From NCBI GenBank assembly GCA_026414225.1, contig JAOAJK010000004.1, positions 1 through 64,000 on the forward strand: a stretch of 64,000 bases of DNA. The letters are read 5' to 3'. This stretch comes from Thermoplasmata archaeon. GTDB lineage: Archaea; Thermoplasmatota; Thermoplasmata; Lutacidiplasmatales; SKW197. The notes beneath the pieces were generated by a model, which searched no databases, had not been told where the DNA came from, and worked only from the letters and a program-made list of their open reading frames with translations. Both the position numbers and the translations under genes were made by a program. This document shows, piece after piece, positions 27,652 to 30,242 of this stretch; the stretch's first letter is position 1; every line of letters starts with the position of its first letter.

Positions 27652-28101
27652 TTACTCATATATCCAGTTTTCTGTGACGAGCTTGTATTCGTAAATCTCC
27701 TCCTTTGTGAAAAAGAGCCCGATTTCTCGCTCGGCACTTGCTAGGGAATCCGAACCGTGGATTATGTTTCTTCCCAGGTCTATAGAGTAATCTCCCCTGA
27801 TAGTCCCGGGAAGGGATTCCTGTGGATTGGTTTTCCCCATCATGTCTCTCACAAGCTTAACCGCATTCTTCCCCTCAATCACCATCGCGATCACAGGTGC
27901 CGAGGTTATATATGCTACAAGTCCCTCAAAGAATTTCTTGCCCCTGTGTTCTCCGTAATGTTTCTCAGCCAGGTCTCTGGTAATCCAGAGCATCTTCATC
28001 GCTACAATCTTTAAGCCCCTTCTCTCGAACCTGGCGATAATTTCACCGCAAACCCCTCTCTGAACCGCATCAGGTTTCAACATTACAAAGGTGCGTTCCA
28101 T
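27652..28101 (-). CDS. ndk: Nucleoside diphosphate kinase
   Basis: A 149-residue enzyme that balances NTP/NDP pools through a phosphohistidine intermediate. The active-site motif NIIHGSDS is intact, and [16 protein letters not shown] is the usual N-terminus. It is the last gene of the L7Ae-eS28-eL24-ndk cluster, an arrangement common in archaea. Its stop lies 2 nt from that of the convergent nikR. Confidence 0.95.
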
Positions 28102-28105
28102 GGGC

Positions 28106-28378
28106 TCACTCCTTCTTTTCTACTTTCTTTTCCTTTGACTCCGGCTTGGCAGGCACAACAATCTTCTTTACAGCCTTCTTTCTCTCCTTCCTTGCAGTTC
28201 CCTTGGTAAACACACCAGTCCACTTCAACTTTCTTGGATTTCTTGCAAACTCTAGGAGATTTTTCTGGCATCTTCTTGAGCAGAAATTGTAGATTGTGCC
28301 ATCTTTCTTTATAAACATCTTTCCTGTGCCTGGTTCAATCGGGTTTCCGCAAAAAGAGCACGTTTTGATTGCTGGCAT
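28106..28378 (-). CDS. rpl24e: Ribosomal protein eL24
   Basis: A 90-residue large-subunit protein. It has the zinc ribbon typical of archaeal L24e ([13 protein letters not shown], then FCSRRCQKN) and the RNPRKLKWT segment. A Lys-rich extension of about 25 residues follows, longer than in many archaea. It sits between eS28 and ndk, 4 nt from ndk. Confidence 0.93.
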
Positions 28379-28390
28379 GTTTTCATCTCC

Positions 28391-28600
28391 TCATTTCACG
28401 GTGAGTTTTCTTGCTTCGCGGGCAGTTTCACGCAGATGGAGAATGTCGCCTACCTGCACCGGACCAATGATGTTTCGGGTTATAATCTTCCCTTTATCCC
28501 TTCCATCAAGGATTCTAACTTTAACCTGTGTTGCCTCACCTGTCATTCCAGTTCTTCCTATGATTTCTACAACCTCTGCATTGGCAGATTCGTCAGGCAT
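28391..28600 (-). CDS. rps28e: Ribosomal protein eS28
   Basis: A 69-residue small-subunit OB-fold protein of normal length. Recognisable features are [20 protein letters not shown], the [13 protein letters not shown] segment and the [11 protein letters not shown] ending, which is nearly invariant in the family. It is cotranscribed with L7Ae (22 nt upstream) and eL24 (12 nt downstream). Confidence 0.95.
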
Positions 28601-28622: not shown

Positions 28623-28994
28623 TCACTTCTTAAGATTTTTAATCGCCTGCTCGATTTCATCCATGAGGGGCTTTCCCTTTCCGAAATCAACGATTGCGAC
28701 CGAGGCGGACTGTTTCTCGAGTCCGGCCGCGTTTCCGAGGGAAACCTTGCTTGGCACATACCCGTAGGGAATTTTCTTCTCCTCGCAGAGCATCGGAATG
28801 TGGGCAAGAATTTCCGGTGGTTCAACATCCTCCGCCATTACCACAAACTTTGCATCACCTCGTTCGAGAACTTTTGTAACTTCGTTGGTGCCTTTCTTCA
28901 CCTTGCCAGTTTCCCTTGCCATCTGCACCAGCTGATAAATCTTATCCGCAACCTCTTTCGGGGTTTCGAACCTTACATACATCGGTTTCGCCAT
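28623..28994 (-). CDS. rpl7ae: Ribosomal protein L7Ae (also box C/D and H/ACA RNP component)
   Basis: A 123-residue kink-turn-binding protein of the ribosome, box C/D and H/ACA RNPs and RNase P. The RNA-contact segment KKGTNEVTKVLERG and the downstream VMAEDVEPPEI are conserved. ATG 28994 is preferred over GTG 29003 because AGAGGTG lies 6 nt before it. The mRNA has a leader of about 48 nt, in which a K-loop-like element (29025-29042) overlaps a hairpin (29012-29026). L7Ae may therefore repress its own translation. Confidence 0.95.
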   Translation of the reverse strand: MAKPMYVRFETPKEVADKIYQLVQMARETGKVKKGTNEVTKVLERGDAKFVVMAEDVEPPEILAHIPMLCEEKKIPYGYVPSKVSLGNAAGLEKQSASVAIVDFGKGKPLMDEIEQAIKNLKK

Positions 28995-29011
28995 ATCTGA
29001 CACCTCTTTCT

Positions 29012-29042
29012 GCTATTTTTTATAGCCTCATTATTCACAGGC
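29012..29042 (-). promoter_or_regulatory. Candidate L7Ae-binding K-loop overlapping a hairpin in the L7Ae leader
   Basis: On the minus strand 29042 to 29025 reads GCC-TGT-GA-ATAAT-GA-GGC: a 3-bp C-stem, a three-nucleotide bulge ending in U, tandem sheared G-A pairs and a terminal loop, which is the kink-loop recognised by L7Ae. Next comes GCTAT-AAAAA-ATAGC (29026-29012), which shares two bases with the K-loop stem, so the two folds compete. The ribosome-binding site and ATG 28994 follow. L7Ae self-repression through leader kink-turns is known in some archaea; its use here is inferred. Confidence 0.5.
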
Positions 29043-29063
29043 AAAGGGGTTTACATGGAAATG

Positions 29064-29072
29064 GTATATATA
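29064..29072 (-). promoter_or_regulatory. TATA-like box of the L7Ae operon
   Basis: TATATATAA (plus-strand reading) lies about 26 nt before position 29042, so transcription should begin close to the 5' edge of the K-loop. Confidence 0.5.
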
Positions 29073-29132
29073 ACTTTGCTTCTGAGAATTTGGGTCACTT
29101 CAGTGTCTCTCTCTATGGTACACACAAAATCA

Positions 29133-29162: not shown

Positions 29163-30242
29163 ATGCAGAGAAAAATCTGTATAATCCATGATTTCTTTTT
29201 CAGTGCTGGTGGAGGAGAAAAACTTGTGCTTACCCTAGCAAAAGCCCTCGGGGCTGATGTGTATACCACCCATGTAGAAAGGAGAGTGCTGGAAAATCTC
29301 GGTTATGAGAATGTACCCGTGTATTCTATCGGGGATGTACCTGCTAACCAGTTTCTAGCTGCGGAAATCTCCACTCTTTGGTATTCCACACTCCATCTGA
29401 AAGATAAGTATGATGTTTACATTCTTTCAGGCAACTGGGCGCACTGTGCAGCCCTCCATCACCATCCAAACATTTTCTACTGCCACACTCCCGTGCGTTA
29501 CTTTTACGATTCCAGGGAGCGATTTCTCGGAAATTTCGGTCCTCTGATGCGGAGTTTCCTGAAAACCATAATCTGGCTGCAGAGCAGATATGATAGATAC
29601 ACGGTAAGACATGTGGACCAGATTGTGGCTAACAGCAGAAATGTGCAGCAACGGATAAGAAGATATTATGGGCGAGAATCAGTGCTGGTCCATCCCCCTG
29701 TAGATACTGATAGATACAGGTTTGAAAGGGTGGGCGAATACTGGCTCTCCGTTAATCGCATCACACCTGACAAAAGAATAGAACTCCAGTGCGAAATTTT
29801 TAGAAAACTGAGGAACGAGAGATTAATTGTCGCCGGAAAAATAGAGCGGCAGGCAGGAGAATACTTTCAATCTTTAAAACCACCGGAGAACATCGAGTTC
29901 CTCGGTGAGTGTAGCGAGACGGAGCTTATGAAACTTTATGCAAACTGCAAGGGATTGATTACCACCGCTATTGATGAGGACTTTGGAATGACTCCGCTTG
30001 AAGCAATGGCGTCGGGAAAGGTTGTGCTGGCGGTTAACGAGGGGGGCTATAGAGAAACAGTTGTGGATGGCGTAACTGGCTGGCTTTTGCCCCCAACTCC
30101 AGATGCGTTTGTTCGAAAAGTGAGGGAGGTTGATGAGAAGACACTTCTTGGAATGAAAGACAGCTGTATTGCCCATGCCAGAAAATTCGATGTAAAGGTA
30201 TTCGTGGGGAAGATGGAGGAATTGATCGAGAAGCTCTGTTAG
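29163..30242 (+). CDS. GT4-type glycosyltransferase
   Basis: A 359-residue GT-B fold enzyme. The N-terminal domain opens with IHDFFFSAGGGEKLVLTLAKAL (glycine-rich acceptor loop). The C-terminal domain has RITPDKRIELQCEIFRKL and the EDFGMTPLEAMASGK nucleotide-sugar site, with the retaining-enzyme Glu pair. No membrane helix is seen. It probably adds a sugar to a surface glycan or lipid; donor and acceptor are unknown. The rfbB gene 3.5 kb away could supply a deoxysugar precursor. Its stop overlaps that of the convergent OB-like gene by 4 nt. Confidence 0.88.
   Translation: MQRKICIIHDFFFSAGGGEKLVLTLAKALGADVYTTHVERRVLENLGYENVPVYSIGDVPANQFLAAEISTLWYSTLHLKDKYDVYILSGNWAHCAALHHHPNIFYCHTPVRYFYDSRERFLGNFGPLMRSFLKTIIWLQSRYDRYTVRHVDQIVANSRNVQQRIRRYYGRESVLVHPPVDTDRYRFERVGEYWLSVNRITPDKRIELQCEIFRKLRNERLIVAGKIERQAGEYFQSLKPPENIEFLGECSETELMKLYANCKGLITTAIDEDFGMTPLEAMASGKVVLAVNEGGYRETVVDGVTGWLLPPTPDAFVRKVREVDEKTLLGMKDSCIAHARKFDVKVFVGKMEELIEKLC

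Follow-up and report, generated by a model that had tools for sequence, protein, structure and literature searches.

The leader of about 48 nt preceding the gene of L7Ae (eL8) in a Thermoplasmata archaeon very probably represents an autoregulatory L7Ae-binding element composed of two nested k-turns, both the binding and the repression being predicted. In the window, i.e. the whole stretch of 64,000 nucleotides that was analysed, this tandem element occupies positions 29003–29042 of the minus strand, where the core of the leader reads CC-UGU-GA-AU-AAU-GA-[GGCUAUAAAAAAUAGCA]-GA-AA-GA-GG, and its strict pattern occurs only once in the genome of 1.9 Mb.

The L7Ae gene (28623–28994, minus strand, ATG start at 28994) belongs to the TIGR03677 equivalog with 159.7 bits, and its product matches the solved archaeal L7Ae with 155.9 bits, retaining the RNA-binding segment KGTNE(V/T)TK. 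On its 3' side the genes of S28e, L24e and nucleoside-diphosphate kinase (27652–28600, minus strand, NCBIfam equivalogs) follow with short gaps and probably form one operon with it. The TATA box GTTATATA was found by a consensus scan at 29067–29074 of the minus strand and has the same letters in L004, the only genome of the same genus. Since 25 nt separate the end of this box from CC at 29041, we place the transcript start near 29042, which agrees with the leader length of about 48 nt assumed in the original prediction. A scan for sigma-type promoters, which are also of the wrong type here, gave no match on the L7Ae strand. Rfam 15 has no family above the gathering cut-off in the window, and in the loci of eight relatives it registered tRNAs only. 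A divergent glycosyltransferase frame is present on the plus strand; its listed start at 29055 overlaps the L7Ae promoter, and ATG near 29163 (MQRKICIIHDFF) is the likely one.

Layout of the tandem element

In the 5'→3' direction the leader RNA is GCC UGU GA AU AAU GA G GCUAU AAAAA AUAGC A GA AA GA GG UGUCAGAU AUG; all its parts named below are on the minus strand. The 5' strand of the outer C-helix is GCC at 29040–29042, with GGU at 29004–29002 as a partner suggested by RNAfold and by the flanking pair in columns 4/46 of the leader alignment; next to the bulge this helix contains Watson-Crick CC:GG plus G.U. Two bulged strands with the conserved NNU-GA signature follow: the outer one, Kt-b1 (29035–29039), with the UGU bulge (U at L3) and GA, and the inner one, Kt-b2 (29028–29032), with the AAU bulge and GA. 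They stand opposite GA at 29006–29005 and 29010–29009, respectively. The latter is the inner non-bulged step Kt-n2, assigned by sequence and pattern, while the former is a part of GAGG (29003–29006), which combines the Shine-Dalgarno sequence, the outer non-bulged GA (Kt-n1) and the 3' strand of the outer C-helix, as judged from sequence and the U-A link pair. The hairpin GCUAU-AAAAA-AUAGC (29012–29026), supported by stem statistics and compensatory changes, provides the NC helix of the inner k-turn, and only a 2-step helix (A.A and U-A) links the k-turns to each other. The most fitting interpretation of the leader is a pair of k-turns, one nested in the other, with the Shine-Dalgarno sequence used by the outer one. 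RNAfold, which has no knowledge of k-turns, gave for the bare 45 nt a minimum of −6.7 kcal/mol with GCCU paired to AGGU and the hairpin formed; its energy was inside the shuffled range (z −0.93), and such weakness is expected of a protein-dependent switch.

The original prediction had described a K-loop of 31 nt at 29012–29042, with the GCUAU hairpin as a competing structure. Its letters, GCC-UGU-GA-AUAAU-GA-GGC running into GCUAU-A5-AUAGC, are indeed present there upstream of the L7Ae gene and are retained in L004. However, comparative data identify Shine-Dalgarno GAGG, not GGC at 29027–29025, as a partner of GCC/CC, so that the K-loop joined the outer bulged strand wrongly to GA of the inner one. 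Its 3-bp C-stem appeared weak because GGC was the wrong partner, and the supposed competitor instead closes the inner k-turn. What is conserved (29003–29042) spans more than the K-loop and extends through the Shine-Dalgarno sequence. Thus, the idea of an L7Ae-binding element controlling exposure of the ribosome-binding site survives as far as a k-turn-type element is concerned, which is well supported, while the specific pairing proposed for it does not.

Conservation and phylogenetic spread

Leaders of L7Ae genes were collected by gene position, ignoring the motif, from related genomes at the levels of order, class and phylum, among them the genus mate L004 and the same-order family f2. Their common layout is CC-NNU-GA-NN-NNU-GA-hairpin-GA-NN-GA-GG, and the window fits it exactly. 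From the center outward the conserved order is the helix, tandem G-A, 5' NNU bulge, 2-step link (normally containing a U-A pair), tandem G-A, 5' NNU bulge and CC:GG, with NNU-GA conserved at both bulged strands. This layout was found in most families of the same class except f2, f3, f5, f6 and f8, as well as in many other families of the phylum, and every position-fetched leader has it in f4, f7, f9, f10, f11, f12, f15, f16, f20, f36 and f37. The strict pattern was registered in 76 of 190 leaders; with a limit of 120 nt it was observed in 75 of 188, against 0.01 expected from dinucleotide shuffling. In 96% of 70 distinct leaders, versus 20% of shuffled ones, the inner GA steps enclose a stem of 4 bp or more that sits flush against them.

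In the alignment of 41 leaders the tandem structure was paired in 92.9% of cases (76.9% after shuffling). Its covariation was 0.473 compared to 0.196 (sd 0.019) in shuffled samples and 0.04–0.11 with slid partners; CC, GG and all four GA steps, being invariant through the selection of the leaders, were excluded from this evidence, so that independent tests come only from the hairpin, the pair in columns 4/46 and the U-A link. The hairpin has compensatory changes at all six positions, the pair 4/46 flanking CC:GG is retained in 38 leaders of 41 and the U-A link (columns 13/40) in 40 of 41. Unaided RNAalifold predicted the hairpin core only.

Since the strict pattern has, at a low rate, scattered matches away from L7Ae leaders over 293 genomes, a covariance model tests the element more reliably. 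The hold-out model, built from 39 leaders with this genus left out, gave the window a match of 36.9 bits at 28999–29045 (genome-wide E 3.7e-8), while the next-best place in the genome scored 17.6 bits; all other matches, not exceeding this value, were judged to be chance ones. It also recovered leaders that the strict pattern had missed, for instance L106 from Methanocellales, outside the phylum (25.5 bits). The model based on all 41 leaders gave a strong match (E ≤ 7.6e-7) in 51 of 194 genomes, one in each, and all 51 are located directly upstream of L7Ae, as established by coordinates and, for four genomes without a listed gene, by tblastn. Around nop loci (nop5 is reported to be regulated in Sulfolobus) no model match was found in this genome, G001 and four same-order genomes. 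A similar leader with a far longer insertion between the strands was noticed in L059 (1385–1496) and L130 (22.8 bits).

Several families have their own variants. In 28 leaders of f2 the sequence is CC-CGU-GA-GCC-GA-hairpin-GCU-GA-CGC-GA-GG or near it, which places two k-turns face to face via a short common helix; it hardly varies, and L031 has a single compensatory change, from C.C to A-U. Plain K-loops closed by the Shine-Dalgarno sequence are present in f14 (GCC-UAU-GA-UAG-GA-GGC) and in Hydrothermarchaeum (L084 and L095; UACC-GAU-GA-AAG-GA-GGUA), and short leaders of f5 retain the outer parts and lack the hairpin. Across these variants it is thus the outer part, bearing the Shine-Dalgarno sequence, that stays constant. 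No clear element was seen in the leader of f3 (same order, one genome, G003), and the tandem element is absent from Thermoplasmatales and several other families. The tandem form of L106 (198–242) indicates that this design also exists outside Thermoplasmatota, the spread beyond this phylum being judged from a single set of fetched loci.

Some other features of these leaders were registered as well. In the f2 leaders L005–L032, L050 and L186 the facing double k-turn CCCGUGAGCCGAGG-hairpin-CGCUGACGCGAGG, with its own variable hairpin, abuts the L7Ae start. For the f14 K-loop leaders (L138, L155, L156, L158, L162, L163 and L179) the predicted transcript start is at or near the C-stem. L7Ae leaders of the Thermoplasmatales-type f6 (L224–L239) have no tandem element, and most of them share GUGAAGGAGG before the start codon. 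Leaders L113–L129 and others of Methanomassiliicoccales type have an extra hairpin GCUCUU..GAGC just upstream, which includes the C that begins the outer C-helix and could compete with this helix; it is missing in the window, where the spacing from the TATA box is shorter.

Alternative readings of the leader

The same letters allow other explanations. The K-loop GCC-UGU-GA-AUAAU-GA-GGC, which would bind L7Ae, exclude the GCUAU hairpin and thereby alter exposure of the ribosome-binding site, is permitted by the sequence in this genus (3 pairs, U at L3), and genuine K-loops, having the Shine-Dalgarno sequence as the second strand, are found in f14, L084 and L095. Nevertheless, its geometry (3 pairs, NNU-GA, a loop of 3–9 and GA) appeared in 1324 of 20000 dinucleotide shuffles (6.6%), and across 41 relatives its C-stem GCC/GGC was paired in 48.0% versus 47.8% after shuffling, with covariation of 0.013 versus 0.016, so that neither the conservation nor the covariation of this stem was borne out. 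It would also break the hairpin, i.e. the very part that covaries, and it is absent from the thermodynamic minimum. As an explanation of the conserved element it is, therefore, highly unlikely, even if in this genus the leader may still adopt this K-loop as an alternative fold. An element unrelated to L7Ae, either a conserved hairpin at the ribosome-binding site or an upstream open reading frame, is suggested by AUG inside the GAUGA strands of many relatives. But the first strand of the window reads UGUGA, a short frame opened by the second AUG terminates within the window and not in L004, the pattern is linked exclusively to L7Ae and the conserved letters are those of k-turns, all of which makes this explanation very improbable. 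Box C/D guide RNA was rejected: guide spacers are absent, with 2 nt between two 5' GA-strand units and likewise between the 3' GA steps.

A subtler question is whether the outer k-turn alone binds L7Ae and regulates, leaving to the inner G-A steps and the hairpin just the role of closing it. This is a sub-version of autoregulation and is compatible with it. The outer strand with its Shine-Dalgarno partner persists without the hairpin in the K-loops of f14 and short leaders of f5, and the published leaders have one k-turn. On the other hand, the inner part carries the full k-turn signature (NNU bulge, GA/GA and flush helix) in 70 distinct leaders. We regard sole action of the outer k-turn as a serious possibility with somewhat less than an even chance.

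Proposed mechanism and relation to known L7Ae leaders

Repression of the L7Ae mRNA by its own product, via a k-turn in the leader, is described for Sulfolobus, and a response in an E. coli reporter was observed with L7Ae leaders of several other archaea, too (Daume et al. 2017, PMC5539422). In A. fulgidus the protein folds the leader, and the Shine-Dalgarno sequence, located in the C-helix, becomes protected (Huang et al. 2019, PMC6298567). Given that the outer k-turn of the window has the same placement and that KGTNE..TK is kept, we infer by analogy that L7Ae binding, Shine-Dalgarno occlusion and repression are likely in this archaeon, too. According to the autoregulatory reading with nested k-turns, the free mRNA would be weakly structured and translated, until L7Ae in excess of its sites in rRNA and guide RNAs binds its own leader. 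The bound protein would fold the outer k-turn (CC-UGU-GA with GA-GG) and bury GAGG. The inner k-turn (AAU-GA, hairpin and GA) would stack on the outer one and offer either a further site for L7Ae or a scaffold folded in advance. L7Ae would then be translated less, as would perhaps S28e, L24e and nucleoside-diphosphate kinase encoded behind it. Simultaneous formation of the two k-turns, with two L7Ae molecules bound, is a conjecture; two bound proteins may clash, because the k-turns share just a 2-step helix. Somewhat less likely than not, the leader is a riboregulator whose nested k-turns are filled cooperatively by two L7Ae molecules, so that synthesis would be switched off more sharply than by the known single k-turns. 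Such a natural double k-turn may be a standing form of L7Ae autoregulation in Thermoplasmatota and possibly in some methanogens outside this phylum, as suggested by one leader of Methanocellales.

With the leaders of Sulfolobus acidocaldarius, Archaeoglobus fulgidus and other archaea the element shares the NNU bulge, tandem G-A pairs, the Shine-Dalgarno sequence inside or beside the k-turn and a weak protein-free fold. The published leaders contain one k-turn each, whereas here two are nested and conserved through much of Thermoplasmatota; having two bulged and two non-bulged conserved strands, the element is a variant of the L7Ae leader k-turn rather than its plain member. K-loops of box C'/D' type have in common with it one Watson-Crick stem, the NNU bulge and G-A pairs closing the loop. 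The leaders of f14 fit this type exactly, while in the window the loop contains a second k-turn and the hairpin. Like the engineered unit of Huang and Lilley (2016, PMC5058347), the element includes two k-turns in one short duplex. That unit is symmetric, and f2 resembles it in having two k-turns that face each other across a shared NC helix, whereas those of the window have the same orientation. Box C/D guide RNAs have similar strands of the L7Ae-bound kind (box C-like UGAUGA and GA), but the element of the window belongs to an mRNA leader and overlaps the Shine-Dalgarno sequence.

The 2017 study found strong leader conservation only in Sulfolobales and called prediction problematic (PMC5539422). 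The main text of that paper and of PMC6298567 contains no description of a double k-turn, and in open-access text we found none of tandem or double k-turns with L7Ae, nor of k-turns in Thermoplasmata or Methanomassiliicoccales, although an undiscussed drawing may exist. The nested double form in Thermoplasmatota thus appears to be new to the open-access literature searched. It extends mRNA switching controlled by L7Ae to a phylum without an earlier report in this literature, and a covariance model can find such elements automatically. If both k-turns are occupied, the leader would parallel in nature the engineered double k-turns and provide a cooperative switch of compact size. The simple K-loop, the tandem form and the facing double k-turn, all attached to one orthologous gene, make up a series for studying evolution of RNA elements.
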